Part shown: piece by piece, positions 24,441 to 44,612 of the stretch
How the letters are laid out: each line of letters opens with the position of its first letter
How positions within the stretch are numbered: position 1 is the stretch's first letter
NCBI GenBank assembly: GCA_947503285.1
Contig: CANNDD010000008.1
Coordinates: 1-64,000, forward strand
Length of the DNA: 64,000 bases
From: an uncultured Croceitalea sp.
GTDB taxonomy: Bacteria; Bacteroidota; Bacteroidia; Flavobacteriales; Flavobacteriaceae
Reading direction: 5' to 3'
The notes under the pieces: generated by a model
What the model was told of the DNA's origin: nothing
Databases searched by the model: none
Seen by the model: the letters and a program-made list of their open reading frames with translations, nothing else
Program-made: the position numbers and the translations under genes

Positions 24441-24465
24441 TAAGGAACCCCCGAGTACTTCAAAA

Positions 24466-25866
24466 ATGAAAATACTTCCAAAACTCTTACTGTTACTTTT
24501 GCTTTTGCCCGCGCAAAACGTGGTGCTTGCACAAGATGGTGAAAGTCACGGCTCGAAGGCCATAGCGAAATATCTACGTGATAAAATGGAATTACACGGT
24601 ATTCCCGCATTGGCCTTGGGCATCTTAAAAAAAGATTCCATTGTATTCGAAGGCTATTATGGAAAGACAAGCAAAGGACTTCCCATCAGTAATCAAACTG
24701 TTTTCAAAACCTTTGGTATCACAAAATTGGTGGTTACAACGGCTATTTTTAAACTTATTAATGCTGGAAGGCTAAATTTAGATGATACGCTATCTAAGCA
24801 CTTAAAGGACATTCCCAATGCATGGAAAAAAATCCAACTAAAACAGGTGCTTGCCAATTCTTCTGGTATTCATAACGTATTGGGCTTTGGGGTCAATGAA
24901 TCCAACAGCCGGTTTTTTGAACGTATTGGGAAACTACCCTTAGACTTCGTTCCTGGTGACAGGTATGATTTAAATGCGGTCAACTATTGGTTGTTGGGCG
25001 AACTGATTGAAACAATTTCAGGCGAACCTCTTGAGCAATATGTTTGGAAGCATATGTTGGGGGGTAACGGGACAGACTTTTGGTTCACTACCTACTTATC
25101 CCCAAATGCGGCCCGCGCTGCCCGTTTGGAAGGGTACAATCCTTGGGAAAATGGCCATTTGAACGTTATCGATAGGGGCTATGCCCGTGACCGGGCAAGT
25201 AATGGATTGAACAGCTCATTGCCCCGACTTATGAACTGGACAAAGAAATTGTTGGCCAATCGCTACTTCCCTGAAAAGACAAAACTCAAAATGTGGACGC
25301 CGTTTGCCTATACCAACTATGATATGCCTTTTTCATATGGTTGGTACCACTACCCCGTCAACCAAAAAGACTCCTATGGAATCAACGGTTCAAGAACGAC
25401 ATTGCGCATATTTCCAGAGCAGAATCTTACCTTGATTCTGATGACCAATGGGTATGGGTACTATCCCGTTCAAAAGGAAATTGTGAATACCCTAGCAGGC
25501 ATGTTGGTTCCAGAATTGAAGAATACCCAAGAATTGTGGTTTTACGAAACGTGTGATGACTTGGTGCGTCACAAAGGTTCCAATGCTAGTGCCCTTTTCA
25601 AAAAGACCAAAGAAAAAATTCCTAAAAATGAATTGGAACCATACCTGATTTCTCTGGGCAATAAATCGTTGGATCTAAAAAATCCAGAGGCTGCCCGCCT
25701 ATTTTTTGAGGTAAACGGTCAAGAATTTCCAAATTCCGTAAAGGCGTTTGAGCGCCTGACACTATTCTATCGCAGTCAAGGGTTATCGGATGAGGCCCGT
25801 AAAAACCTGAAACGGGTATTGGAACTAGTTCCAGCCCATCAATGGGCACAAAAACCAAAAAGATAA
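24466..25866 (+). CDS. Inactive serine hydrolase homologue (4 of 4)
   Basis: 466 residues with a signal peptide (about 1-22, ending VLAQ). It is collinear with the preceding hydrolase, but the nucleophile serine is glycine (G84-I-T-K87, codon GGT at 24715). The tyrosine position carries leucine (L169 in YDLNAVNYWLLG). The lysine of the SxxK motif is kept. A TPR-like C-terminus is retained. The reading frame is intact over its full length, so it is a pseudoenzyme and not a broken gene. A ligand-binding or scaffold role is possible but not shown. Confidence 0.85.
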   Translation: MKILPKLLLLLLLLPAQNVVLAQDGESHGSKAIAKYLRDKMELHGIPALALGILKKDSIVFEGYYGKTSKGLPISNQTVFKTFGITKLVVTTAIFKLINAGRLNLDDTLSKHLKDIPNAWKKIQLKQVLANSSGIHNVLGFGVNESNSRFFERIGKLPLDFVPGDRYDLNAVNYWLLGELIETISGEPLEQYVWKHMLGGNGTDFWFTTYLSPNAARAARLEGYNPWENGHLNVIDRGYARDRASNGLNSSLPRLMNWTKKLLANRYFPEKTKLKMWTPFAYTNYDMPFSYGWYHYPVNQKDSYGINGSRTTLRIFPEQNLTLILMTNGYGYYPVQKEIVNTLAGMLVPELKNTQELWFYETCDDLVRHKGSNASALFKKTKEKIPKNELEPYLISLGNKSLDLKNPEAARLFFEVNGQEFPNSVKAFERLTLFYRSQGLSDEARKNLKRVLELVPAHQWAQKPKR

Positions 25867-29372: not shown

Positions 29373-32300
29373 TCAATTCACTTGAATGAATTGCAGGTAA
29401 TCTGAGTTTTTGGCGGCAATCAAGTAATCGCTTCCCTGAATTTTGATTTTTACCATGTCTTTAACGTCCCCGGGAACGTAAAGGCCGCTTTCCATTGCGG
29501 TAATCGGTTCAAAACCACCCTTTCCATCACCTCTCAGAAAAAGTCCGTTGCTGGCATCGTTTCTAGGGGTTTCCACCTCTGAGCTATACAGATTGCCAAC
29601 AACAAGGGCATCGAGATTTCCATCGTTGTCATAGTCGTTCACAAGAATCTGGTTTATGGATGATAGCTGGGCCAAAGTTGGCAGCTTATGAAAAACATAT
29701 TTTCCATTTTTATTTTCTAGGTACACACTTGCAAATGATTTTATTTGATAATGTAATGACTCATTCAATTCTTTTTCTGTGTAAACATCTTCTAAGGTTG
29801 CCGTTGAAAATGATTCATAGTTTTTGAACTTTTTCTTGATAGCCGGCATTTGCTGTGACGTGCATTCACGACCGCGCACAGGGAATTTTTCACCTTCGTT
29901 GTAATAGCTCAAGACAATATCATTTGTGCTATTGTTATCAAAATCATTGAAGTAAATGTCGAAGGTCTCGTCTTCATTCGCCTTGTACTTGTAATTAAGA
30001 CCAAGATTACCAACGATATAGTCCATATCGCCATCGTTATCGAAATCCCCCTCATTAATACCAAACCACCAACCACGGGAATCTTCAATGCCCAAACTTG
30101 ATGAGACGTCCTTGAAATACCCTTCGTCATTTTTGAGGACCGTTATGGGCATCCATTCGCCTATAAGGATTAAATCGGTCCACCCATCTTGATCATAATC
30201 CGTCCAGAGGCCATCGGTTACCATACCAAGGTTCGTAAGAAAGGGAGCGATTTTTTGCGTGGCGTTTACAAATTGCACCTTGCTTTTTGTGCTTTTATTT
30301 TCCAATATGTAGCTATTGGCCGGTGATGGATAGTTTCCTGGAATCAATCTACCCCCGATGAACAGGTCTAAATCACCATCTTTATCAAAGTCATGACTGC
30401 GCACCCTTGACGAGCTGGTAATCATTTTGGGTAAAGCTGTGGTTGATTTTGAAAAGTTGCCCTTGCCATCATTCAGGTATAACCTGTCTTGAAGTTCCTT
30501 GGCATCCGGTGCAAACTCATTCCCACCGCTGGCAATATAAATATCATTATCCCCATCACCTTCGGCATCAAAGATATGTATGCCCATATCTTCAGAAATA
30601 AGGTCCTCACTGAAGACACTATTATCAGTTTGAACAAAGCCTGACGCCTTTTGTAGGTAAATCGAGGTAGGATGGTGTGAAGAACCGCCAACAACGATAT
30701 CATCGGTACCATTATTATCTAAGTCACCAACTGCTACATTTGGCCCAAACATAGAGGTGCTATGGGGAAGCAAGATTTCTTTGTAAAAATCATCATAACG
30801 ATTTTCTTTATGTAAGTGTTCCACTATACGATTTTTACTTTTTTCAGTTTGAAAGCGCTTTTTTGGTATTTTAGGCTTAACGAGGTCTATTGCCCCTGCA
30901 TTTTGATAGTTGACCAGTAGTTCTTGATTTGTATCAGGAGCGACTATTAATTCTTGTTTTCCATCAGGCCATACCACACTAATGGAATCAACGGTCTTTG
31001 TCTGTCCGAGACCAAAATGGACTTTTGGTGCAACTGATGATTGAAAGCCCCTGGTCATTGTGAGTTCTTGGTACTGCGTTGACCCATTTGAAAATAAGGT
31101 TGTTTTTACGCCGATTCCAAATGGATTCTTTTGGGTTCCTTTGAACTTCAATGTGATGGAATTATGCTTTGAAGAACTCTTGTTTTCGAAAATACTTGCA
31201 ACATCGTCGATATTATTGGTTACAATTTCAAGATCACCATCATTATCAAGATCCACATAAACACTACCGTTAGAAAAGCCTTTGAATTCAATACCCCACT
31301 CTTTATTTTTTTTGCTAAAGGTCAAATCCCCATTATTTTTGAAGGCATAGTTGTCAATTTTCTCTGAGGGGATGGCCAAGGTTTTTTGAAGTGTACTATC
31401 CTTAGGCAATCCTTTTTTCTCGATTTCCTTAAAGAAATCCCTGTTATTGATTTCGCGCCGGGTTCCATTCGAGATGAAAATGTCCTTCCAGCCATCATTA
31501 TCCAAATCAGCGATTAGGGGCCCCCAGCTCCAGTCCGTTGACGAAACCCCGGCTATTCTCGATATGTTACTGAAATCGGGAATGGAGTCCAATAAGTTGC
31601 CGTTATTCATCTGAAGGCTGTTCTGCATGTACTGGTAATGAAATCCATAATTGACGGTACTCCAGAACAAATCAGGATTCATACTGGCCATATTGGCTTT
31701 TGCCCTTCTATTGATTTGAGAGGTCATGTCTACTTGAAGGATATCTAAAAGTTTATCGTTGTTAAAATCGGCAATGTCGACGCCCATGCCATAAAATGAG
31801 GTGTTTTTCGTGGCAGAACGTACTTGCTCGGAGAATGTTCCGTCTTGGTTGTTGATAAACATATAGTCTGGTGTGCTAAAATCATTGGAGACATATAAAT
31901 CGGGCCAACCATCTTGATTTAGATCACCTACAGTGGCGCTAAGCGAAAGACCAAAGGTTTTCAAGCCGGCCTCTTCGGTAACCTCGGTAAAGGTGTCACC
32001 ATCATTTCTAAAAAGATGGTCAGATTCCAATGGTTTTTGGGATTTTTGTTTGAACGCATAAAAATAGTTTGGTGCGTTAAAGGGAGTAGGAGGGTAATTG
32101 GCGATATACAGGTCTAGGTCTCCATCACGGTCATAATCAAAGAATGTCGATTGTACACTGTTACTCACATCGGCAATACCATAATCCCTGGCCATTTCAG
32201 TGAAGGTATTATCGCCGTTATTGATAAAAAGTTGGTTCTCTTTGGGGCCAAATTTTCCTCCCACGGAACAATAAATATCCAGATAGCCATCATTGTTCAC

Positions 32301-32684
32301 GTCACTCATCGTGGTGCCTGTGTACCAACGCGAATCACCGGATACACCGGCCTTGGCCGAAATGTCCTCAAATTGTAGATTGCCCTTGTTCAAATAAAGC
32401 TTGTTGGGTACCATATTGCCCGTAAAATATAAATCGGTAAGGCCATCATTGTTGATATCACCGGCAGATATTCCGCCACCCATATAAATGTAGGCATAGG
32501 TGAAATAATTCAACGAATCGTTTTCGCGCAACGTATTTGAAAAATCAATGTTCGTTTGGTCCATAGCGAGTCTGTTGAAAATGGTCTGGGAAACCTGTTC
32601 TTTATCGTCGCTTTTATCAGCGCAGCTCGTTAGTACTATACATCCAAAAATGAACAGTAGGCTTAAGAAAAATCTAGAGATCAT
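29373..32684 (-). CDS. VCBS/FG-GAP repeat lipoprotein with ASPIC/UnbV domain
   Basis: 1103 residues. The lipoprotein signal ends VLTSC. Many Asp-rich calcium-binding-like repeats (DINNDGLTDLYFTGN, DLDNDGWKDIF and similar) form one or two beta-propellers. Between them, about 520-610, lies an ASPIC/UnbV region (GVKTTLFSNGS, HFGLGQTKTVDSISVVWPDG). In Flavobacteriaceae such proteins are often encoded next to SusC/SusD pairs and are thought to act at the cell surface, perhaps binding the glycan. It follows susD on the same strand behind a terminator. Confidence 0.87.
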   Translation of the reverse strand: MISRFFLSLLFIFGCIVLTSCADKSDDKEQVSQTIFNRLAMDQTNIDFSNTLRENDSLNYFTYAYIYMGGGISAGDINNDGLTDLYFTGNMVPNKLYLNKGNLQFEDISAKAGVSGDSRWYTGTTMSDVNNDGYLDIYCSVGGKFGPKENQLFINNGDNTFTEMARDYGIADVSNSVQSTFFDYDRDGDLDLYIANYPPTPFNAPNYFYAFKQKSQKPLESDHLFRNDGDTFTEVTEEAGLKTFGLSLSATVGDLNQDGWPDLYVSNDFSTPDYMFINNQDGTFSEQVRSATKNTSFYGMGVDIADFNNDKLLDILQVDMTSQINRRAKANMASMNPDLFWSTVNYGFHYQYMQNSLQMNNGNLLDSIPDFSNISRIAGVSSTDWSWGPLIADLDNDGWKDIFISNGTRREINNRDFFKEIEKKGLPKDSTLQKTLAIPSEKIDNYAFKNNGDLTFSKKNKEWGIEFKGFSNGSVYVDLDNDGDLEIVTNNIDDVASIFENKSSSKHNSITLKFKGTQKNPFGIGVKTTLFSNGSTQYQELTMTRGFQSSVAPKVHFGLGQTKTVDSISVVWPDGKQELIVAPDTNQELLVNYQNAGAIDLVKPKIPKKRFQTEKSKNRIVEHLHKENRYDDFYKEILLPHSTSMFGPNVAVGDLDNNGTDDIVVGGSSHHPTSIYLQKASGFVQTDNSVFSEDLISEDMGIHIFDAEGDGDNDIYIASGGNEFAPDAKELQDRLYLNDGKGNFSKSTTALPKMITSSSRVRSHDFDKDGDLDLFIGGRLIPGNYPSPANSYILENKSTKSKVQFVNATQKIAPFLTNLGMVTDGLWTDYDQDGWTDLILIGEWMPITVLKNDEGYFKDVSSSLGIEDSRGWWFGINEGDFDNDGDMDYIVGNLGLNYKYKANEDETFDIYFNDFDNNSTNDIVLSYYNEGEKFPVRGRECTSQQMPAIKKKFKNYESFSTATLEDVYTEKELNESLHYQIKSFASVYLENKNGKYVFHKLPTLAQLSSINQILVNDYDNDGNLDALVVGNLYSSEVETPRNDASNGLFLRGDGKGGFEPITAMESGLYVPGDVKDMVKIKIQGSDYLIAAKNSDYLQFIQVN

Positions 32685-32808: not shown

Positions 32809-34578
32809 TTAATAACCGGGATTTTGTGTTAAAGTACCACCACTTAAACCTAAAGCATCAAGAGGAATTGGACACAAATCTTGTCTCGTGTCATAAGGAT
32901 TAACGGATGCTCCAAAAGGAGGTATTGCCCTACCTTCGTTAGAGTAGTATTCGGTTAATACTTGAGAAGACACCCCCCAACGTCTTAAATCGAAAAGGCG
33001 ATGTCCTTCCATACCCAATTCCACACGTCGCTCAAAACGAACCGCATCCCTAGCAAAATTGGCATCTGGAAAAGAACTATACTCTCCCACTTGATAATTC
33101 GCTGCAGGGCCACTACCATCTATGGCTTGAACTACTGGGGTGTTTGAAGCTCTTGCACGGACTTGGTTTACATAATTTAAAGCAGTAGCAAGGTCACCTG
33201 TTTCAACGGCAGCTTCAGCAGCCATTAACAACACATCTGCATAGCGGATAATATTGTAGTTGACACCGGAATGTTGTTGACCCCACGCTCCGGTTCCTTG
33301 ACTTGTACCTAATTCATTTGCTTGATACACATTTTTCTTTGGTAAATAAGGACCCGAAAAATCTGCAAAAGTCGCTCTTATCCAATCAGCACCTATATTC
33401 TCTCCGAAACCGTTGTAATCAATTCCCCTTCTTCCGACGGTATAATCGATTCTTGGATCTACCGGAGTGGTAGTGTCAGGTGTGAAGGCTGCATCTGAGG
33501 GAATACCATAATCACTGGAAAAATCAGAATCATTAAATGTATCGAAAAGAGGCAAGCCGTTAGCGTCAACTTGAAAAGCATTTGCTAAGTCTTGGGTTGG
33601 TTGGTAGAATCCGCAGCACGTTCCATTATCACCTATTGGGGGTCCGCCTGGAAAATTTAATGTACCACCCCTGTTTCCATTGAAAGATTGTCCTCCATCT
33701 GCGGCAAATTGAATGGCAAATACGGATTCAGCCCCATTTTCACCTGCAGCGGTGAAATTGTCCAAGTAATTTGGGTTAAGTGCAAATTCTCCACTATTGA
33801 TTACAGCAGTCAATTCAGTAAGCGCATTTGCCCAATCGGATTGATATAAATGGGCTTTGCCTAAATAAGCTCTCGCAACAATAGCGGTTGGCCTTCCAGC
33901 TTCTGGTTGATCTGCTCTAGTCGCAGGAAGGTTTTCTACGGCAAATTGAAAATCAGCCTCTACTTGAGCCCAAGCAGGACTATCGCCTATTGCACTTACG
34001 GGACTACCTTCGACATTGGGCTGATTGAATTCTTGTGCATCATAGTTTTCAACACTGACAATAGCCACATTTCCAAAGATTTTGATTAAGGAAAAATAAA
34101 AGTGTGCCCTTAAGAATCTAGCTTCTGCGGCTTGATTGCTTATAGCTTCGGCTTCACTTGGTTGAAGTGTAGTAAGGTCGATACCGTTTATTACTGAAAG
34201 GACTGCGTTTGCTCGATTTACCCCGGCATACAATGAAGTAAATTTTGCCCTGAAATAACCGTTGCTGGTTTGCCAGTCATTTTCTTCCACTAATTCTAGG
34301 TCACCTTGGTCACTATCGGTACTACCCTTATGGGCATCATCAGCGATAACGTCAAACCACCAGTTATCACCACTTACAGCGAATTGGTTACCTTGAATAC
34401 TATTTCGCCACCCGTCAAGAAGGGAATATGTGGCTGTTAATAAAAGGTCTACCCCCTGTGGATTTACCAAATTTTCTGGGCTCAATGCCCCAACCGCAGG
34501 GGTTTCGGCAAACTCATCACCACATGAGATGACAAATCCCATTAAAATTAAACTTAAGCAAATTAATTTCTTTTTCAT
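32809..34578 (-). CDS. SusD/RagB-type outer-membrane lipoprotein
   Basis: 589 residues. The lipoprotein signal ends GFVISC (Cys 19). The family pattern is clear: an N-terminal helical TPR-like part (EARFLRAHFYFSLIKIFG near residue 150) and a C-terminal part with NIIRYADVLLMAAEAAVETG and the closing FERRVELGMEGHRLFDLRRWG. It should cap the partner SusC channel and bind the incoming glycan or oligosaccharide. It lies 5 bp behind susC. The substrate cannot be read from the sequence. Confidence 0.93.
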   Translation of the reverse strand: MKKKLICLSLILMGFVISCGDEFAETPAVGALSPENLVNPQGVDLLLTATYSLLDGWRNSIQGNQFAVSGDNWWFDVIADDAHKGSTDSDQGDLELVEENDWQTSNGYFRAKFTSLYAGVNRANAVLSVINGIDLTTLQPSEAEAISNQAAEARFLRAHFYFSLIKIFGNVAIVSVENYDAQEFNQPNVEGSPVSAIGDSPAWAQVEADFQFAVENLPATRADQPEAGRPTAIVARAYLGKAHLYQSDWANALTELTAVINSGEFALNPNYLDNFTAAGENGAESVFAIQFAADGGQSFNGNRGGTLNFPGGPPIGDNGTCCGFYQPTQDLANAFQVDANGLPLFDTFNDSDFSSDYGIPSDAAFTPDTTTPVDPRIDYTVGRRGIDYNGFGENIGADWIRATFADFSGPYLPKKNVYQANELGTSQGTGAWGQQHSGVNYNIIRYADVLLMAAEAAVETGDLATALNYVNQVRARASNTPVVQAIDGSGPAANYQVGEYSSFPDANFARDAVRFERRVELGMEGHRLFDLRRWGVSSQVLTEYYSNEGRAIPPFGASVNPYDTRQDLCPIPLDALGLSGGTLTQNPGY

Positions 34579-34583
34579 TTTTT

Positions 34584-37500
34584 TTACATTTTTAAATTAA
34601 CTCCAAAAAGGAAAATTTGAGCTAGTGGAAAATTGTTGGTATCCACACCAATAGTCAAGGCTGAATTGGCACCACTAAATGGCGGTATCTCTGGATCTAT
34701 ACCGTCATAGCCCGTTATGGTAAACAAATTACTGGCATTTGCATAAATACGCAAACTAGAAATGCCCCATCTATCTGTCAATTGATTAGGTAATGTATAC
34801 CCTACTACCACATTTTTCAAACGAACGAAGGAACCATCCTCAACAAGAAAGGAGTTTGGATTTATTTCTCCGTTTCGAACACTGAAACTTAATGCAGGTT
34901 GTGACCCATCTGGGTTGGTAGTGGCATTGAAAGCATCTAATACCCTAGAGCTTCTATTCCCATTGGGAAAAGTTGCGAAGTCAGTGAAAATTTTATCATA
35001 GTTATAGATGTCATTTCCTATAGTTCCACTGAAAAAAGCAGAAAAGTCCCAGTTCTTATAGGTGGCGTTAAGGTTTAAACCTAGTATCACATCCGGATGT
35101 GGGTTTCCTATAAATGTCAAATCATCATCGTTGATGACTCCATCCCCGCTAATATCAACATATCGAAGTCTCCCAACTCCGTCAGCCGAAGTGGCAAATC
35201 CTTGGTCAGGTCCGGCATTTACTTCTGCTTCGCTCCTATATATACCGTCAACCACTCTTCCATAAAAAGAAGATATAGGTAGTCCTACTTCTGTTCTAGT
35301 GATAGCTCCGTTCCTGAAGGATGTATCTCCAATTAGCGGACTTAACAATTCGGTGACCTCATTGGTTAATGTTGAAACGTTTAAATCTGCCCCAAATGAG
35401 AAATCTTCGGAAAAATTCGTCTGAAAAGACGCGCTTATATCGAATCCACGATTTTCAACATTTCCTGAGTTTACGAACGGTGCGGTGGCATCTGCACCTG
35501 TATCACTACCAATGTTGGTGTTGGAAACAATTAAATCTTGAGTGGTAATTTGATAGTATTCTATACCGAGGGATAAGGCATTATCAAATAAGCCAAACTC
35601 GGCCCCAACATTAAAGGTTTCACTGGTTTCCCAAGTAAGGTCAGGATTTCCTAGAAGTGATAAAAATGCACCTGAAGATATAGTGCTGCCACCATCAAAT
35701 GCGTAATCTGCCACTTGATTGTTCAGGCTGAATATATTTGCTGAAGGATTACTTACAGGAAGTTCTTGATTACCCAATTGTCCCCATGAAGCCTTCACTT
35801 TCAGTCTGTTTATAAATCCATCTTGCGGAAAGAAGTCTTCGTTGCTAGCGACCCAGCCCCCACTAAAAGCGGGGAAGACGCCCGTACCATTATCTCCAAT
35901 GAATCTAGAAGAACGGTCCCTTCGTACCGTAGCACTGAACAAGTATTTATCCGCATAGGAATAATTTACCGAACCAAAAACGGAAGATAGTGTATTCTCA
36001 AAGTCGAAAGTGTTTCCAGGATCTACTATCGGACTTCCAGAAGCATTGCTCAGTAAATAAAAATCTGGGGTCTCATTTATAAAACCAGTAGCCGCAACCT
36101 GTAATCCTTTACCGGTATTTTGAAGTGCTTCTACACCGACGAGTACATTTACGGTATGCTCATCAAAATTTTTGACGTAATTTAAGGTATTGGTCCATAT
36201 CCAATTATAGGTCTGCTGATTTCTTTCAGTAAGTGTGTTGGTTCCCCTTGCTTCAGAATGTTCTGGATTTAAGGCCAGGAAAGTTCTGGTATTAAGTATA
36301 CTGATATCACCACCTATAGAGGTCTTAGCGGTTAAACCGTCCGCAATTTCAAGACTTGCATAAACGTCCCCAATTATCCTAGTTTGTTTTAGAAAATCAT
36401 CACTCGAGCGTATCAAGTCTGCAACCGGATTCGTAGCATTTGACAAACCTAGAGCATTCGAATAGGTTCCTGCAAAGAAACCGTTGTCATCACGCACAGG
36501 CACTAATGGGCTTAAACGCATGGCAAGTTGTGTTCTATTGCCTTGAAAATTTTGATTGTTATTGAAAGAAATATTGGCATGTTGCCCAATGGTTAGCCGA
36601 TTGCCTAACTTAAATTCTGAGTTTAGCCTCGCCTGTCCACGTTTAAAACCTGTTTCCAATTGAATACCTTGTCTATCAAGATAACCGAATGTTGCTGAAA
36701 ACTTCGATTTTTCCCCACCATCCGACATTGAGATACTTACATTTTGGGTGCTTGCCGATCTAAATATTTCGTCTAAAAAATTAGTACCAATTTGGCCATT
36801 TACAGTAGTCGGTACAGGAGCGCCCAATAAAGTCGAGGGAACTGTAGGGGAACCACCGGTCGGGAAAAATTGAGGGTGACTTATTGCCGCGGGATCGGTT
36901 CCATTTTGTATGGCATCGTTGGTCAAACTTTCAAATAAAACATCTCCCAATTGTTGTGCATTCAATATTTCAGGCAATCTGGTAGCTCTACTAAAACCGG
37001 TAGATATGTCAACATTCACGCTCAATTTGTTTTGGTTGTAGCTTCCACTCTTAGTAGTTATTATAATTACACCGTTTGAAGCCCTTGCACCATAAATAGA
37101 AGCCGCACCATCTTTCAATACATTTATCTGCGCTATATCTTGAGGATTGATGGTATTCAAGATACTTCCATCAGTTGTCTGTGCACCGTCAATTATATAG
37201 AGCGGGTTGTTATTGTTTGGGGTACCTAAGCCACGAATACGAACTACGGGCTGGCTTCCTGGTGCACCATTATTAGTAACGTTAACACCAGTAGCCCTTC
37301 CTTCTAGCGCCTCAGCAACGTTCACCAGTGGCTGTTTCGTCGCTTCTGAAACATCTACCGAAGCTACGGCGCCGGTCAAATCGCCCCTAGTCTGGGTCGT
37401 ATATCCAACCACTACCACTTCACTTAGATTGTTCATGTCTTCGGACATGGTCACATTAATGGTGCTTTGCCCATTGATTGCAATCTCTTGGGTTCCGAAA

Positions 37501-37826
37501 CCGATATAACTGAAAACCAAAGTATCATCTGAATCGGCATTGATGGTGTAGTTGCCATCAAAATCGGTCTGGGTACCGTTGGTTGTGCCTTTGACCAGAA
37601 CACTTGCGCCAGGTAGCGGAGCACCAGCGGCATCCGTTACAGTACCTGAAATCGTATTCTGTACATTCGGTAGTGCATCAAGTGTTAGGTTGTTGTTGGC
37701 TTGAGCTAGGTGGAGCCCAGAAACCAAAAAGACGACCAAAGCAAGTACTTGGGATGCTTTGAACAACCTTTTGGTCTTGTCCATCCATGTGAAAAAGCCA
37801 AAGTAAATTGATTGTTTCATAATCAT
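34584..37826 (-). CDS. SusC/RagA-type TonB-linked outer-membrane transporter
   Basis: 1080 residues, normal for the family. After a signal region (to about residue 43) comes a carboxypeptidase-regulatory-like domain (ISGTVTDAAGAPLPGASVLVKG), then the TonB box region SEVVVVGY, the plug (VNVAEALEGRATGVNV, VRIRGLGTPNNNNPLYIIDG) and a 22-strand barrel to the C-terminus. No STN domain is present, so no anti-sigma signalling is expected. It imports ligands delivered by the SusD protein, driven by TonB-ExbBD. A second ATG two codons inside could be the true start. Confidence 0.94.
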   Translation of the reverse strand: MIMKQSIYFGFFTWMDKTKRLFKASQVLALVVFLVSGLHLAQANNNLTLDALPNVQNTISGTVTDAAGAPLPGASVLVKGTTNGTQTDFDGNYTINADSDDTLVFSYIGFGTQEIAINGQSTINVTMSEDMNNLSEVVVVGYTTQTRGDLTGAVASVDVSEATKQPLVNVAEALEGRATGVNVTNNGAPGSQPVVRIRGLGTPNNNNPLYIIDGAQTTDGSILNTINPQDIAQINVLKDGAASIYGARASNGVIIITTKSGSYNQNKLSVNVDISTGFSRATRLPEILNAQQLGDVLFESLTNDAIQNGTDPAAISHPQFFPTGGSPTVPSTLLGAPVPTTVNGQIGTNFLDEIFRSASTQNVSISMSDGGEKSKFSATFGYLDRQGIQLETGFKRGQARLNSEFKLGNRLTIGQHANISFNNNQNFQGNRTQLAMRLSPLVPVRDDNGFFAGTYSNALGLSNATNPVADLIRSSDDFLKQTRIIGDVYASLEIADGLTAKTSIGGDISILNTRTFLALNPEHSEARGTNTLTERNQQTYNWIWTNTLNYVKNFDEHTVNVLVGVEALQNTGKGLQVAATGFINETPDFYLLSNASGSPIVDPGNTFDFENTLSSVFGSVNYSYADKYLFSATVRRDRSSRFIGDNGTGVFPAFSGGWVASNEDFFPQDGFINRLKVKASWGQLGNQELPVSNPSANIFSLNNQVADYAFDGGSTISSGAFLSLLGNPDLTWETSETFNVGAEFGLFDNALSLGIEYYQITTQDLIVSNTNIGSDTGADATAPFVNSGNVENRGFDISASFQTNFSEDFSFGADLNVSTLTNEVTELLSPLIGDTSFRNGAITRTEVGLPISSFYGRVVDGIYRSEAEVNAGPDQGFATSADGVGRLRYVDISGDGVINDDDLTFIGNPHPDVILGLNLNATYKNWDFSAFFSGTIGNDIYNYDKIFTDFATFPNGNRSSRVLDAFNATTNPDGSQPALSFSVRNGEINPNSFLVEDGSFVRLKNVVVGYTLPNQLTDRWGISSLRIYANASNLFTITGYDGIDPEIPPFSGANSALTIGVDTNNFPLAQIFLFGVNLKM

Positions 37827-38206: not shown

Positions 38207-39076
38207 TTGTTAAAAACGTATCAAAGGGAAATCACCGCATTGTCTCCGCAAGACAGTTTTTTGGTCATGGATCGGTTTAGGGATACTTTTGATTATCCTA
38301 TTCATTTTCATCCTGAATTAGAGCTGAATTATATTCATAATGGTAGAGGGATGCAACGTACCGTCGGTTTTAGCATTGAGGAAATTGATGACCATGAATT
38401 GGTTTTGGTAGGCTCTAATGTGTACCATGGATGGAAAATGCACAACTGTACGAAAAGTGTTCACGAGGTGACCATTCAATTTCATAACGATCTTTTTACC
38501 GAGAACTTACTGCGAAGAAGTATCATGAAACCGTTTCGTGAAATGATGGAAAGGTCCGTACACGGTATTCTATTTGATAAAAATGAGTCAAGAAAAATAG
38601 CCTCAAGAATAACCCGGGTCTCTAAAATAGAGGGATTCGACTACTTTTTAGAGATGTTTTCCATTTTATACGATTTATCCCTAACTAAAAACCAGCGATT
38701 ACTTTCGGTATCACAGATGTCAAGGGACGATTTCGATAATAGTGACAAGGTGAAGCTCTTCTACAACTTTATACAAGAAAATTATGCCAATAAAATTACC
38801 CTAGACCAAGTGTCAAGCCTTTTGAATATGAGCAAGGTTTCGTTCAATAGGTTCATAAAGAAAAGTACCGAACGTACCTTTGTCGAATATCTGAATGACG
38901 TTCGTATTGAAAATGCCTCTCGCATGTTGGCAGAGGAGACCTTTGGGGTTTCTGAAATCGCATATAAATGTGGATTCTACAACATTGCAAATTTCAATAG
39001 GGTATTCAAAAAGGCAAAAGGGTGTACCCCGAGTCAATACCGTAAGGAATTCTACAAACTAACAAGGATACAATAA
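38207..39076 (+). CDS. AraC-family transcriptional regulator of the Sus-type locus
   Basis: 289 residues from a TTG start. The first in-frame ATG lies 21 codons inside and would remove conserved residues (TYQREITAL), so TTG is preferred. The N-terminal cupin-like sensor has FDYPIHFHPELELNYI. The C-terminal double HTH covers about 185-285 with LDQVSSLLNMSKVSFNRFIK and SEIAYKCGFYNIANFNRVFK. By position it should control susCD and the oxidoreductase genes that follow, which begin 21 bp behind it. Confidence 0.87.
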   Translation: MLKTYQREITALSPQDSFLVMDRFRDTFDYPIHFHPELELNYIHNGRGMQRTVGFSIEEIDDHELVLVGSNVYHGWKMHNCTKSVHEVTIQFHNDLFTENLLRRSIMKPFREMMERSVHGILFDKNESRKIASRITRVSKIEGFDYFLEMFSILYDLSLTKNQRLLSVSQMSRDDFDNSDKVKLFYNFIQENYANKITLDQVSSLLNMSKVSFNRFIKKSTERTFVEYLNDVRIENASRMLAEETFGVSEIAYKCGFYNIANFNRVFKKAKGCTPSQYRKEFYKLTRIQ

Positions 39077-39097: not shown

Positions 39098-40819
39098 ATG
39101 CAGATCATTGAAACTCCGAAAACATACGATGTCATTATCGTAGGTTCAGGCGCCGGTGGTGGAATGGCAACAAAAATACTTGCTGACGCCGGCCTTAAAG
39201 TAGCCGTCGTTGAGGCGGGGCCGCATTTCGATCCCGCAAACCCTGACCAACAGACGCAACTGAAATGGCCTTACGAGTCTCCAAGAAGAGGTGCCAATAC
39301 GGTACGTCATTTTGGGGATTTTGATACGGCCTATGGAGGTTGGGAAATTGAAGGAGAACCCTATACCAATGAAGACGGGAGCGATTTCAAATGGTTTCGA
39401 TCTCGCATGTTGGGGGGTAGAACCAACCATTGGGGCCGTATCTCACTTCGATTCGGTCCGAAGGATTTTAAAAGAAAAGACCAAGATGGTCTTGGTGACA
39501 ATTGGCCCATCGGGTATGATGATGTGAAACCTTATTATGATAAGGTAGATAAATTGATTGGGGTATTCGGCACCAATGAAGGGTTGCCGAATGATCCCGA
39601 TGGTTTCTTCTTGCCGCCACCAAAACCGAGGTTGCACGAATTATTCTATATCAAAGGTGCCAAAGGTGCCAACGTTCCGGTAATACCTTCTAGAATGTCG
39701 ATGTTGACCAAGAAGATCAATAACGAAAGGGGAGTTTGTTTTTACTGTGGGCAGTGTTCAAGATCATGTTCCGTGTATGCGGATTTTTCATCGGGGAGCT
39801 GTTTGATATTTCCAGCCCAAAAAAATGGGGGGCAGGTCGATCTCTATGTAAATTGCATGGTGCGACAAGTCACGACCAATGAAGAAGGCAAGGCGACCGG
39901 GGTTTCTTATATCAATAAAGAAGATAGAAAAGAATATCAACTAAAAGGCAAGGTTGTGGTGCTTGCGGCATCGGCATGCAGCTCGGCCCGAATCCTGCTG
40001 AATTCAAAGAGCAGGCAACACCCTAATGGCCTTGGTAATTCGAGTGATGTTGTTGGAAGGTACCTTCATGATTCCACAGGTAGCAGCAGGGCCGCTTTCG
40101 TACCTGATTTGATGAATAGGGAAGTGTCGTATAATGAAGATGGTGTTGGCGGAATGCATGTGTATTCCCCATGGTGGTTAGACAATAAGAAATTGGATTT
40201 CCCTAGGGGCTATCATATTGAAGTCTGGGGTGGAATGGGTATGCCAAGCTATGGTTTTGGTTTCAACCCCAATGACTTCAACCGATTCTTTGGGTTGACG
40301 GTCGGGGGCTATGGCAATGGGCTACGAAAGGATGTAAAAAAGTATTATGGATCTGTATTAGGTTTTGGGGGAAGGGGGGAATCCATTCCCCAGAAAAGTA
40401 ATTACTGCGAGATCGACAACTCTAAAGTAGATGAATTCGGCATACCCGTGCTAAAGTTCCATTACAAATGGACGGACAATGAGATCAAACAGGTCAAACA
40501 TATGCACGATACGTTTGAAGAAATCATACACCATATGGGGGGTGAGGCCTTGGGTGACAAACCAACGGAGGCCCAAAATCACGGGATCGCCCCACCCGGA
40601 TGGATCATACATGAGGTAGGTACGACCCGTATGGGGGATGACAAAAAAACGTCTGTGGTAAACAAATATCAGCAATTGCATGATGTGGATAATGTTTTTA
40701 TTGTCGATGCCGGGCCTTTTGTATCACAGGCAGATAAGAACCCAACCTGGACTATTTTGGCGTTATCTTGGAGAACTTCCGACTATATTATTGAACAATT
40801 AAAGCAGCAAAACATTTGA
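39098..40819 (+). CDS. GMC-family FAD dehydrogenase with Fe-S cysteine motif
   Basis: 573 residues. The FAD site VGSGAGGG is near residue 17, with GGRTNHWGR near 107. A four-cysteine motif of the CxxCxxCxxxC type lies at Cys214, 217, 220 and 224. The C-terminal part has HEVGTTRMG and NPTWTILALSWRTSDY. Cysteine motifs in this place bind an Fe-S cluster in the catalytic subunit of FAD-dependent sugar dehydrogenases. The next gene encodes the matching small subunit, so the pair should oxidise a sugar or glycoside hydroxyl in the periplasm. Glucoside 3-dehydrogenase is a candidate activity. No cytochrome subunit is adjacent. Confidence 0.88.
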   Translation: MQIIETPKTYDVIIVGSGAGGGMATKILADAGLKVAVVEAGPHFDPANPDQQTQLKWPYESPRRGANTVRHFGDFDTAYGGWEIEGEPYTNEDGSDFKWFRSRMLGGRTNHWGRISLRFGPKDFKRKDQDGLGDNWPIGYDDVKPYYDKVDKLIGVFGTNEGLPNDPDGFFLPPPKPRLHELFYIKGAKGANVPVIPSRMSMLTKKINNERGVCFYCGQCSRSCSVYADFSSGSCLIFPAQKNGGQVDLYVNCMVRQVTTNEEGKATGVSYINKEDRKEYQLKGKVVVLAASACSSARILLNSKSRQHPNGLGNSSDVVGRYLHDSTGSSRAAFVPDLMNREVSYNEDGVGGMHVYSPWWLDNKKLDFPRGYHIEVWGGMGMPSYGFGFNPNDFNRFFGLTVGGYGNGLRKDVKKYYGSVLGFGGRGESIPQKSNYCEIDNSKVDEFGIPVLKFHYKWTDNEIKQVKHMHDTFEEIIHHMGGEALGDKPTEAQNHGIAPPGWIIHEVGTTRMGDDKKTSVVNKYQQLHDVDNVFIVDAGPFVSQADKNPTWTILALSWRTSDYIIEQLKQQNI

Positions 40820-40821
40820 TC

Positions 40822-41535
40822 ATGGACAGAAGAAAAAGTTTAAAATCAATAGTATTGGGTGGCGTTGCTGGCGGATTGGCCATTCATGGGTGTAAACCTC
40901 AAAGTGAGCAAAAGTTGGATGAGGCCGTAAAAATCAAAGAATATGATTATGGCCGCACTCCCGAGGAAAAGGAATACGATGAAGAACTGCTAACCGAACA
41001 GTTTTTCAATACACATGAAATGGAGACCATTGCCGTGTTATGCGATTTGATCTTGCCTTCAGATGAGACATACAAAGGGGCTTTGGATGCCGAAGTACCA
41101 GACTTTATAGAGTTTATGGCAAAAGATCATCCACCTTTTCAAACAGACCTTCGTGGAGGCTTGATGTGGATAGACCATAAAAGTAATACCGATTATGGTG
41201 CTGAGTTCAAAACCGCTACCAAAGACCAGCAAAAAGCCATATTAGATGAAATTGCCTACCCTGATATTGAGGTTCAAGAAGTGAAAAGGCCTTTAGAGGT
41301 CAATTTCTTTTCTTTGATGCGAAACCTGACTATGACCGGTTTTTATACCTCTAAAATAGGGATTGAAGAACTGGGGTACAAAGGTAATATGCCCAATGTA
41401 TGGGATGGGGTGCCTGAAGCTGTTTTGGCGCAACATGGGGTTTCGTATGATACCAAGTGGGTCGAAAAATGCGTGGACCAGTCAAAACGGGGTATTTTAG
41501 CACAATGGGATGAACAAGGAAATTTATTGACCTAA
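40822..41535 (+). CDS. Gluconate 2-dehydrogenase subunit 3-type small subunit
   Basis: The ATG at 40822 gives 237 residues beginning MDRRKSLKSIVLGG. The twin-arginine-like start is followed by a hydrophobic stretch and a cysteine (IHGC), suggesting export by Tat together with the GMC subunit. A TTG at 40816 would add two residues and overlap the GMC gene, and is less likely. The domain (ETIAVLCDLILPSDETYKGA through FYTSKIGIEELGYKGN) matches the subunit-3 family that helps mature the flavin subunit. It begins 2 bp behind the GMC stop. Confidence 0.87.
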   Translation: MDRRKSLKSIVLGGVAGGLAIHGCKPQSEQKLDEAVKIKEYDYGRTPEEKEYDEELLTEQFFNTHEMETIAVLCDLILPSDETYKGALDAEVPDFIEFMAKDHPPFQTDLRGGLMWIDHKSNTDYGAEFKTATKDQQKAILDEIAYPDIEVQEVKRPLEVNFFSLMRNLTMTGFYTSKIGIEELGYKGNMPNVWDGVPEAVLAQHGVSYDTKWVEKCVDQSKRGILAQWDEQGNLLT

Positions 41536-41542
41536 TAAAAAG

Positions 41543-42385
41543 ATGATGAAAATTAAGAATTCAATAGTATTTTTTCTAATTGCCATTACAATGAATTTTG
41601 AATCGGTCTCACAAGAAATAGGTTTGCAGCTTTACAGTCTCCGTAACGAGATGAAAGATGATGTTGAAGGTACTTTGCAAAAAATTCAATCTTGGGGTAT
41701 CTCAAACATAGAAGAAGGCAATGGAGGAACACACGGGTATTCCATACAAGACTATAAGGCCATGTTGAATAAAAATCAACTAAAGATTGTAAGTGTAAGT
41801 GGAAGTTATGAGGATTTTAGGGATAACCCTGAAAAAATCATTTCCAAGGCCAAGGCTTATGGGGCAAAATATGCAGTTTGTTTTTGGATACCGCATAACG
41901 ATACCATTTTCACCATTAAAGAAACCAAGGCGGCCATTAATGTGTTCAACAAAGCTGGCAAAAAGTTGAAAGACGCCGGAATCACTTTGGCATACCACCC
42001 CCACGGGTATGAGTTCAGACCCTATAAGAAAGGCCTGTTGATGGACCATATGATTGAAAGTGCACAGCATTTTGCTTTTGAGATGGATGTGTATTGGTTT
42101 GCGCATCCCGGTGAAAACCCCATTGAATGGTTAAGAAGGTACCCTGATAAGTTTAAATTGATGCACCTTAAAGATTGCAAGAAAGGTGTTAAGGGTAACT
42201 TGAATGGAACATCGGATGTAGAAACCAATGTAGTGTTGGGTATGGGGCAAATCAATATTGCTGCCATTGTAGCAGAGGCTGTTAAAATGCAAATCGATTA
42301 CCTTTTTATTGAGGACGAATCGTCAAAGGCCATGAAACAAATACCCCAAAGTCTCAAATTTCTTCAATCATCACTTGATAAATAA
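41543..42385 (+). CDS. Secreted sugar isomerase/epimerase-like TIM-barrel protein
   Basis: 280 residues with a signal peptide (about 1-22, ending SVSQ). The xylose-isomerase-like TIM-barrel fold is shown by GLQLYSLRNEM, the metal-site neighbourhood LAYHPHGYEFRP and FEMDVYWFAHPGENPIEWL, and KLMHLKDCKKG. The usual metal ligands (Glu/Asp/His) appear present. A periplasmic member next to a GMC dehydrogenase fits proteins that process oxidised sugars or glycosides, but the substrate is unknown. Its TAA stop codon is the first triplet of the inverted repeat that bounds a small element. Confidence 0.82.
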   Translation: MMKIKNSIVFFLIAITMNFESVSQEIGLQLYSLRNEMKDDVEGTLQKIQSWGISNIEEGNGGTHGYSIQDYKAMLNKNQLKIVSVSGSYEDFRDNPEKIISKAKAYGAKYAVCFWIPHNDTIFTIKETKAAINVFNKAGKKLKDAGITLAYHPHGYEFRPYKKGLLMDHMIESAQHFAFEMDVYWFAHPGENPIEWLRRYPDKFKLMHLKDCKKGVKGNLNGTSDVETNVVLGMGQINIAAIVAEAVKMQIDYLFIEDESSKAMKQIPQSLKFLQSSLDK

Positions 42386-42604
42386 CGTGAGTTCGACGTA
42401 AGAAACCTGTCACTTATTTGGTTTCTCACGATTTATAGACTTATGTCAGGTTGAGCCTTTCGACTTCGCTCAAGACAGGCGCAGTTGAAACCTCTCTTTA
42501 AATGTACATTCTTTCAAGCCCTCGACTGCGCTCGGGGTGACAACAGTCTATTATTGTTGATATTTGTTCTCTTTTGGATCTACTGTTAGGTCGAACTCAC
42601 GTTA
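42383..42604. repeat. 222-bp MITE-like element with 15-bp inverted ends
   Basis: TAACGTGAGTTCGAC (42383-42397) returns as its exact reverse complement at 42590-42604. The inside contains smaller hairpins: AGAAACC/GGTTTCT near 42401-42427, and two arms around CTTTCGACTTCGCTC and CCCTCGACTGCGCTCGGGG of the kind repeated between genes in many Flavobacteriaceae. There is no open frame. No clear target-site duplication is seen. The stop codon of the preceding gene lies in the left end. Confidence 0.6.
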
Positions 42605-42854
42605 ACTAGAATATCAGACAAAGCTTAGCGGTTTTTACTACGTTATATTGGTAATGGAATCCGTGTTTTAGATGGTATATGATCAAGAACAATACTACTT
42701 GGGCTGGCATTCAAAATGCGCGTTCGGCCCTGAAAGCAGTTCTAGGTATGGGGAAACTTGCAACGATGCTACCCGTCCCTACAATATTTTGCCCCATGAT
42801 GAGCACTTCTAGTTTTTCCTTGGCTTCAATTTGGAAAGAAAAAATACAAAGAAC
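42605..42854. other. Region behind the sulfatase gene
   Basis: 250 bases with no intact gene. On the minus strand one frame reads IEAKEKLEVLIMGQNIVGTG and SIVASFPIPRTAFRAERAF before a stop, which looks coding and may be a remnant. A plus-strand frame (42679-43095) overlaps the sulfatase gene and is taken as a shadow. Confidence 0.35.
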
Positions 42855-44612
42855 CTATTTCCGCTTCAAATTCAATAATCGAAAATCAATGACACTGTTT
42901 CCCGGCATAGTTATGGCGCTTAAACCTAACTGCCCAATCCCTTTGTTCAAAGAAATTTCGCCCAGTTTAATTGCTTTGAAGTCCTTAACAAGGGACTCCA
43001 TTCTTGGGCTTCTATCTTTATCTGCCCCGATTAAATCGGGGTCATGGAATTCGGAAATGACCTTGGTTATTTTTGAATTGTTCAGCCTTAATTGAAGTTT
43101 AGTGCCAACAGCGTCCTTTTTGCAGGTGTAATAAAGAAAAACCTCAAAAGTGCCTTCTTGAAGTATATCTACATTCCAGAAAATGGAATCATTCGTGCTG
43201 ACCCAATTGGTGTAAAAAGAATCATTAGGCCATCGATTGCTTCTTGTGATCGAACCGGTCGCTATGGCATCGCGAGCGGGTAGTTGTGTATAATAATAAT
43301 CCTTTGTGCCTATGGTAAAAGGTCTTTTCTTATCAATTTTCGAAGCTAGTATTTCTTGCTCCCATTTTTCTTTAATGCGAACTAAACTATCCTTTATAAT
43401 CGGTTTTTTTGAGCTTATATCGATGGTTTGACCGAGGTCATTGTCCATATCATAGAGTCTATTCTCCGCATCCAACCTGTATTTTTGGGTTCTTAAACTG
43501 GTTTCTCCATTCCAATGGTTATATACGACCCTAGCCGTTGTAGCAGGGTTTTGATTCAATACTTTCGAACTTAGGTCAAGCCCATCCATCCTCAATGTGT
43601 CAGGTAGTTTGATTTTTGCCAGACCCGTCAATGTAGGCAATAGGTCTATCGACGCCATAAGTTGTTTTGATTTGTGCCCGGCTTTTATATGCTTAGGCCA
43701 TTTTATAAAAAAGGGTGATTTTACCCCACCCTCGTCGGTACTGCCTTTTTTGCCGCGCATACCGCCATTCCACCGCCAACCATTAGGGCCATTGTCAGAC
43801 ATGAAAATGACGATGGTGTTTTCTTCTAGGCCATTCTTTTTTAAGATGGCATTCAATCGGCCTATATTCCAGTCTATATTTTCAACCATTGCCAATGCTG
43901 CCCGGGTAAACCGTTCATCTTCCATTCCGTCACCTTGATATTGCATGGTAAGCGGCTTGTCTTTGAACCTAGCCCAGTATTCATCGGGTGATTGCATTGG
44001 GCTATGGGGGGTATTTATAGGCAGGTACAAGAAAAAGGGCTTGTCACGATTTTCAGAAACAAAATCAATGCCGTAGTTGAACAAATCATCTACTAAAAAA
44101 CCGTTCCCCTTTACAATTTCACCATTGCGTTCTAACATAGGACTAAAATAATTTCCCCAATGCCCAGAACAGAATCCGTAAAAATCATCAAAACCCCTAG
44201 CGTTGGGGTGGTAGGGCGGTTGCATGCCATTGTGCCATTTACCGTATGCCGCGGTTTGGTATCCATTGCTTTTCAAAACATCGGCTATCGTAGGTACGTC
44301 AAAGTCCATCCGTTCCCCACCGGCTGAGGTAGCATACACCCCTAGTCTTGGGAAGTGCTGGCCGGTTAATAACTCCGCCCGGGTAGGTGAACAAACTGGT
44401 TGAACGAAAAAGTTTTCCAACACCATACCCTTATAGGCTATACTGTCAATATTTGGTGTGGAAAGATTGGTATTGCCATGATAACTTAAGTCACCCCAAC
44501 CTTGATCATCGGTTAAAATCAGTACGATATTGGGTTGTTTGAAGGGTGCTTCCCTTTTGGTGCAAGAACATATCGCCAAAATAGTAAAAAAGGTACTTAA
44601 AAAAATCCTCAT
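42855..44612 (-). CDS. Sulfatase (type I, formylglycine-dependent), lipoprotein
   Basis: 585 residues. The lipoprotein signal ends AICSC. The metal-binding start NIVLILTDDQGWGD carries Asp35 and Asp36. The maturation motif C74-S-P-T-R is intact, so Cys74 is converted to formylglycine by an FGE-type enzyme. GKWHNG and ADVLKSNGYQTAAYGKW are typical of S1-family arylsulfatases. A C-terminal extension of about 120 residues (from about 460) has a beta-rich pattern, perhaps a carbohydrate-binding part. It probably removes sulfate from a marine polysaccharide. It closes the Sus-type locus. Confidence 0.92.
   Translation of the reverse strand: MRIFLSTFFTILAICSCTKREAPFKQPNIVLILTDDQGWGDLSYHGNTNLSTPNIDSIAYKGMVLENFFVQPVCSPTRAELLTGQHFPRLGVYATSAGGERMDFDVPTIADVLKSNGYQTAAYGKWHNGMQPPYHPNARGFDDFYGFCSGHWGNYFSPMLERNGEIVKGNGFLVDDLFNYGIDFVSENRDKPFFLYLPINTPHSPMQSPDEYWARFKDKPLTMQYQGDGMEDERFTRAALAMVENIDWNIGRLNAILKKNGLEENTIVIFMSDNGPNGWRWNGGMRGKKGSTDEGGVKSPFFIKWPKHIKAGHKSKQLMASIDLLPTLTGLAKIKLPDTLRMDGLDLSSKVLNQNPATTARVVYNHWNGETSLRTQKYRLDAENRLYDMDNDLGQTIDISSKKPIIKDSLVRIKEKWEQEILASKIDKKRPFTIGTKDYYYTQLPARDAIATGSITRSNRWPNDSFYTNWVSTNDSIFWNVDILQEGTFEVFLYYTCKKDAVGTKLQLRLNNSKITKVISEFHDPDLIGADKDRSPRMESLVKDFKAIKLGEISLNKGIGQLGLSAITMPGNSVIDFRLLNLKRK

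Follow-up and report, generated by a model that had tools for sequence, protein, structure and literature searches.

A putative periplasmic route for the oxidation and beta-elimination of glycosides in an uncultured Croceitalea species

We analyzed a 64,000-nucleotide stretch of DNA from an uncultured Croceitalea sp. (contig CANNDD010000008.1, assembly GCA_947503285.1; hereafter the window, to which all coordinates refer unless a locus is named) that carries four consecutive genes on its plus strand. These encode an AraC-family regulator with a TTG start (38207..39076; PF12833/PF00165), the 573 amino acid catalytic subunit of a flavin adenine dinucleotide (FAD) dehydrogenase of the GMC family (39098..40819; PF05199/PF00732, GMC_oxred_N/C), a small subunit of 237 amino acids read from the ATG at 40822 (40822..41535; PF13618, Gluconate_2-dh3, 7.9e-36), and a secreted, xylose-isomerase-like TIM-barrel protein of 280 amino acids that we propose to be a 3-keto-glycoside 1,2-lyase (41543..42385; PF01261, AP_endonuc_2). 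The genes are separated by 21, 2, and 7 bases, gaps short enough to fit a single operon, which the four genes probably form with the regulator as its first member. Promoter-like and terminator-like sites occur at about the frequency expected of shuffled sequence (15 and 6 found, against 13.6 and 4.8, respectively). The open reading frames (ORFs), the AraC gene, and the neighboring susCD genes lie where a preliminary description of this DNA had placed them, as seen from the ORF list and Pfam. That description proposed that imported glycosides are oxidized in the periplasm and that the TIM-barrel protein acts on the resulting keto-sugar; our analysis makes it likely that the operon encodes a periplasmic route of this kind, in which oxidation would be followed by beta-elimination. 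The description also likened the two-subunit enzyme to the glucoside 3-dehydrogenase first described in Flavobacterium saccharophilum, a kinship that is conjectural.

At the N-terminus of the TIM-barrel protein, and of its relatives, a Sec-type signal precedes a Gln (judged by eye rather than by a signal predictor), in agreement with the signal peptide noted earlier. Its solved relatives in a phmmer search at 1e-3 were 8tcd, 8tcs, 8tct, 3l23, 3obe, and 8bvk, the first three being the best, and a profile built from 26 of its relatives matched 8tcd at 3e-47, the eliminase AtOGE (8bvk) at 5e-37, and the IolE structure 3cny at 3e-10. When the predicted model (predicted local distance difference test, pLDDT, 91.8) was compared with solved folds, 8tcd and 8tct, which are titled 3-keto-beta-glucopyranoside-1,2-lyases of Alistipes and B. 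thetaiotaomicron, gave Z scores of 26.2 and 25.8, no more than 1.5 below the top match, and AtOGE gave 22.9. In the alignment to 8bvk, counted by hand, His152, His154, Asp182, His208, and Glu257 fall on AtOGE His132, His134, Asp163, His189, and Glu233 (the codons of His152-Pro-His154 lie at 41996..42004), and all five residues are invariant in the 26 aligned TIM-barrel proteins. The H134A variant of AtOGE is reported to be inactive and H189A to retain less than 0.1% (PMC10628242). The best reading of the window protein is that of a metal-dependent beta-eliminase of a keto-glycoside, with a predicted role as a lyase and not a hydratase. A literature search on the PDB codes and names of the lyases returned no relevant paper.

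The GMC protein carries the CxxCxxCxxxC motif given in the preliminary description, at exactly Cys214, Cys217, Cys220, and Cys224 (codons at 39737..39769), which we propose as the site of an iron-sulfur (Fe-S) cluster. Each of the 80 clustered GMC ORFs, which come from 79 relative loci, has all four cysteines, and so do 130 of 131 loci, the exception being a Pseudoalteromonas protein (45% identical) with Ala at 217. The 131 loci comprise the 80 closest and loci L092-L142, with two genomes counted twice and further overlap possible. Such conservation, compared with 48% of the close set for Cys253 of the same protein, shows that the motif is not a product of chance; the catalytic pair His505/Asn548 is kept in 131 of 131 loci. 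In the Burkholderia glucose dehydrogenase (BcGDH), the ligands of the 3Fe-4S cluster are Cys212, Cys218, and Cys222, spaced as C-x5-C-x3-C (PMC6719666), and Cys214, Cys220, and Cys224 of the window protein match this spacing, as do the cysteines of four paralogous GMC proteins of the host genome, which have Arg in place of Cys217. Because BcGDH uses three cysteines and the paralogs have Arg at this place, the family of the window GMC protein adds a fourth cysteine, and Cys217 may hold a fourth iron of the cluster. A disulfide between Cys217 of the GMC protein and Cys217 of the small subunit was also considered, given that Cys213 of BcGDH, next to its cluster cysteines, bonds the small subunit (PMC6719666); this idea was weakened by the Arg of the four paralogous GMC proteins and by three paralogous small subunits that keep a cysteine in the corresponding column.

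The nearest solved sequence relatives of the GMC protein are the large subunit of fructose dehydrogenase (FDH) and BcGDH. Its predicted model (pLDDT 86.6, lower around the cysteines) is likewise closest to FDH entries, with Z scores of 37.2-47.5; the top match was the FDH variant 8k6j (Z 47.5, root-mean-square deviation 2.8, 518 residues aligned), the wild type 7w2j gave 38.5 and BcGDH 39.0, and pyranose oxidases came next, with Z scores up to 37.5.

No signal peptide was seen by eye on the GMC protein. The small subunit has a twin-arginine N-terminus (MDRRKSLKSI), as the preliminary description had indicated, and a TatC gene is present in the genome, so that export by the twin-arginine translocation (Tat) pathway can be predicted for it. 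Since only the small subunit has such a start, the two proteins would be exported together. In addition, Cys24 of the small subunit, which the preliminary description had passed over, occupies a lipobox-like place. The columns of Cys24 and of the C-terminal Cys217 are invariant in 79 clustered relatives and the window protein, although a more stringent lipobox pattern is matched by just 61 of the 79; a lipid anchor through Cys24 is probable. At 1e-3 no solved chain matched the small subunit, and a literature search on its name together with GMC found no paper.

No cytochrome gene was found among the ORFs and Pfam matches of the operon, in line with the absence remarked on earlier, and the multihaem cytochrome c subunit expected of an Fe-S GMC complex is missing from it. 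A search of the genome for a cytochrome c partner gave eight PF13442 places, six of them over the cut-off, and none on the contig of the window. We also scanned 131 stretches around GMC genes for CxxCH motifs with a crude filter (the window is counted twice, and 30 stretches have flanks of about 1.5 kb) and found a nearby CxxCH protein in 11 of them (13 matches). Six of the 13 matches belong to a DsbH-type family, assigned by clustering with one member typed; the credible candidates are a cytochrome c at L024, its evident ortholog at L027, and a multihaem protein at L081; the match at L072 looks unrelated, and the eleventh stretch is L019. The L081 protein, of a Saonia genome (L081:12582-13805), has 407 amino acids and seven CxxCH motifs, lies directly after the small subunit, and is a candidate electron acceptor.

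In the route that we propose, a glycoside would be imported by SusCD, and the GMC protein, exported in folded form together with its Tat-targeted small subunit, would use FAD to oxidize a hydroxyl of the sugar, most likely at C3. Electrons would pass through the surface Fe-S cluster to a quinone or to a cytochrome encoded elsewhere. The TIM-barrel protein, with a metal predicted by alignment to be held by His152, Asp182, His208, and Glu257, would use His154 as the base that removes the proton adjacent to the newly formed ketone, so that the aglycone leaves by beta-elimination. Control of the operon probably lies with the AraC protein.

The TIM-barrel protein belongs to one of two barrel types. 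Seven relatives (L041, L045, L046, L057, L063, L069, and L073) encode two fused PF01261 barrels of about 250 residues each, in proteins of about 530 amino acids, beside the GMC pair. A tree of 37 rows places the window protein inside the clade of the second barrels (8 rows, support 100/100), on a long branch of its own (0.32), and leaves the 21 single barrels from other loci outside this clade. By its sequence the window protein corresponds to the second half of a tandem-duplicated enzyme, here present as a copy that stands alone. Compared with the first type, the second-barrel subtype carries an insertion after Glu57; the two types keep the catalytic residues and differ at positions 58-61, 86, 112, 114, 167, 189, 196, and 212. 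Among loci that have genes in common with the window on the downstream side of the operon, L049 and L061 have first-type single barrels and L077 has no TIM match. It is possible that one barrel type is an eliminase and the other a hydratase, the activities described for two successive steps in the A. tumefaciens and B. smithii pathways (PMC10628242, PMC7676230).

To compare gene content among relatives, we scanned the contigs of GTDB genomes, in which at least 591 stretches matched and at least 577 of these encode relatives; the best 80 were kept as close loci. GMC proteins in these 80 are 79-89% identical to that of the window. The small subunit was found in all 80 by tblastn and in 79 by profile on called ORFs within 6 kb. 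The other genes are less constant: by tblastn, the TIM gene was matched in 29 of the 80 loci, AraC in 19 (3 of them near 30% identity), SusC in 23 (some at about 30% identity), the sulfatase downstream of the operon in 17 (4 at 23-25% identity), and the FG-GAP/UnbV protein next to susCD in 16, and by stricter clustering these counts fall to 28, 16, 14, 12, and 12, respectively. The proximity of susCD reported in the preliminary description thus holds in the window, and it is only partly conserved among relatives. Other neighbors at the close loci include sulfatases, GH130 (two clusters, in 18 and 9 loci), GH26 (8), GH1 (7), and the Gfo/Idh/MocA family (9), and glycosides that are sulfated or contain mannose are therefore possible substrates in this group. 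In Fisher tests, the TIM gene was associated with genes for AraC, sulfatase, GH130, and Gfo, with p-values uncorrected for the kinship of the loci. GH130 was rejected as a partner in the host genome, where no match was found at E 0.001. At a locus of Arenibacter troitsensis (L082:6438-12445), two GMC and small-subunit pairs stand in tandem with a TIM gene between them.

Across the phylum, GMC orthologs were present in 60 of 247 genomes drawn, the window's own included (E 1e-130 or better, at least 55% identity), and longer stretches were taken for 20 of the 60, mostly distant ones. In five of these 20 (G033, G214, G081, G061, and G147), a gene of the 3-keto-disaccharide hydrolase family PF06439 lies within 6 kb of the GMC gene, against 0.36 expected with positions taken as random (P 2e-5). 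The 20 genomes hold 115 PF06439 genes in all at E 1e-10; G081 and G147 hold one copy each, and a copy at 9.1 kb in G126 was left uncounted. The same stretches have Gfo genes near GMC in three cases and TIM genes in six. PF06439 is also found at L103 and L106, two of 29 further loci with flanks of about 1.5 kb, and two loci (L127 and L129) bring together GMC, small-subunit, PF06439, Gfo/Idh/MocA, and TIM genes. In Pseudoalteromonas, the gene order is Gfo/Idh/MocA, TIM, MFS, DUF1080, GMC, small subunit, and TIM, and the last TIM protein is 18.5% identical to that of the window (E 6.5e-12). By blastp, the TIM proteins of L125, L134, and Pseudoalteromonas connect to that of the window, either directly or via homologues of the latter.

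Around the operon itself, the divergent susCD genes and their neighbor lie upstream on the minus strand: a SusC/RagA TonB-dependent transporter that is likely to serve uptake (34584..37826; TIGR04056, 813.6 bits), a SusD-like lipoprotein (32809..34578; PF07980), and, adjoining them, an FG-GAP/ASPIC-UnbV repeat protein (29373..32684; PF13517, PF07593). Downstream, also on the minus strand, is a sulfatase with the Cys-type formylglycine motif CSPTR (42855..44612; PF00884), possibly of the same pathway. No DUF1080 or Gfo gene lies within 6 kb of the window GMC gene. The intergenic region after the TIM gene (42385-42640) shows, by eye, similar short motifs on both strands and may be a dispersed palindromic repeat, and four successive PF00144 (serine beta-lactamase-like) genes occupy 19774-25866.

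The host genome encodes four PF13618 proteins, that of the window included, and at least four further GMC proteins, 29-32% identical to that of the window, near the other three (only those clusters were examined); because of these further clusters, the window operon is one of several probable systems of its kind. One of these, on contig C2 (L007, G000:C2:112000-131500), holds GMC, PF06439, and TIM genes, two of each, and is a probable 3-ketoglycoside cluster. The window TIM-barrel protein has a single other relative in the genome at 1e-3, which is 27% identical; of the other PF01261 places outside the GMC clusters, two (L143 and L144) showed no linked pathway genes by eye.

Periplasmic oxidation followed by the action of the TIM-barrel protein on a keto-sugar is supported by the lyase relatives, the match to the AtOGE active site, and the PF06439 context of the distant orthologs. 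Several observations weigh against it. The best solved relatives of the GMC protein oxidize fructose and glucose. The top structural match of the TIM-barrel protein is 3obe, an unassigned isomerase (Z 27.3), and both 3l23 (Z 26.2) and Art22, which is called an isomerase (Z 25.8), score level with the lyases. Within 6 kb of the GMC gene, PF06439 is found in none of the 80 closest loci, Gfo in 7, and TIM in 29, and the fullest clusters of Bacteroidota, L127 and L129, have TIM proteins of other PF01261 subgroups, with no blastp match to that of the window at 1e-3. The second-barrel clade could have a reaction of its own, and the substrate need not be a glucoside, given the GH130, GH26, GH1, and sulfatase genes at the close loci.

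If the second-barrel clade does differ in function, the glycosidic bond would be cleaved by another protein, such as a PF06439 protein, for which the host genome has six places over the cut-off outside the window, or another barrel elsewhere in the genome. Two sugar-isomerase-like proteins act in the A. tumefaciens pathway, an eliminase and, on preliminary evidence, a hydratase (PMC10628242), and two proteins are likewise described for the elimination and hydration steps in B. smithii (PMC7676230); the fused barrels, the well-supported placement of the window protein among second barrels, and the eleven positions that separate the types are in keeping with such a division of labor. Both barrel types nevertheless keep all of the catalytic residues of AtOGE, the essential His134 included, and we regard cleavage elsewhere as unlikely. 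That the barrel is loosely connected to a general respiratory sugar or alcohol dehydrogenase seems to us rather unlikely too: 52 of the 80 close loci, whose GMC proteins are so similar, have no clustered TIM protein of the window type, but in the window the TIM gene starts 7 bases after the small subunit, and a search of 20 other genomes with the GMC gene found a TIM relative at E 1e-10 somewhere in 17 of them (in 13, with at least 37% identity), in most cases away from the GMC gene. Finally, the affinity of the GMC protein to fructose and glucose dehydrogenases would also suit the oxidation of a cyclitol or a free sugar, with the barrel as an IolE-like periplasmic dehydratase of the keto-cyclitol or keto-sugar. 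IolE structures are among the fold matches (Z 24.0), but the match to the model of the myo-inosose-2 dehydratase IolE reaches 30.9 bits against an NCBIfam cut-off of 290, the profile matches 8tcd far better than the IolE structure, and some distant GMC orthologs sit with 3-keto-disaccharide hydrolases; such a dehydratase is very improbable.

A broader proposal, which we put forward as speculative and unlikely, is that in Bacteroidota the dehydrogenase would have become a [4Fe-4S], lipid-anchored, cytochrome-free membrane enzyme that feeds the quinone pool directly, and that its partner barrel was duplicated within one two-domain protein, as in the seven relatives, so that one half eliminates and the other hydrates. 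Together they would make up a full oxidative glycosidase of the periplasm, acting on marine glycans that are sulfated or rich in mannose.

When a sugar is first oxidized and then undergoes elimination, its glycosidic bond is broken with no classical glycoside hydrolase involved. At the enzyme level this is described for a few bacteria, such as A. tumefaciens, B. smithii, and a strain from the human gut (PMC10628242, PMC7676230), and the route of the window is apparently a common variant of it. Here the probable variant stands beside SusCD and sulfatase genes in a bacterium of a largely marine family, where it would be missed by a search limited to glycoside hydrolase families. Its fourth cysteine and missing cytochrome gene also make it a clear test case for how such dehydrogenases deliver electrons.

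The kind of pathway is known, and what sets the window variant apart is its site of four cysteines, its probable lipid anchor, and the duplication of the barrel. With the lyases AL1 and BT1 (8tcd, 8tcr, and 8tct) and with AtOGE (8bvk), the window barrel shares the TIM fold, at 27% identity to AL1 and BT1 and 23% to AtOGE in structural alignments, and its metal and catalytic residues align with those of AtOGE; it differs from all three in its signal peptide and second-barrel subtype, and its own activity is predicted from sequence. BcGDH (6a2u) and the Gluconobacter FDH (7w2j) have the GMC fold, the His/Asn pair, the C-x5-C-x3-C spacing, and a separate small subunit in common with the window proteins, which differ in the extra conserved Cys217, in a small subunit that has no solved match, and in the lack of a cytochrome gene in the operon. 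The Caulobacter system LacABC/DUF1080 and its Bacteroidetes relatives combine a periplasmic dehydrogenase, of three components in LacABC, with a 3-keto-disaccharide hydrolase (PMC9007349), as is seen near some of the distant orthologs; compared with that description, the window has a TIM-barrel partner instead of PF06439 and two subunits instead of three. Lastly, the GlycDH-OGE-HYD-Gfo operon of A. tumefaciens and the levoglucosan operon of B. smithii pair the 3-oxidation of a sugar with a beta-eliminating enzyme encoded nearby (PMC10628242, PMC7676230). Compared with these four-enzyme pathways, the window encodes only the oxidase pair and one barrel, and it provides them with export signals.

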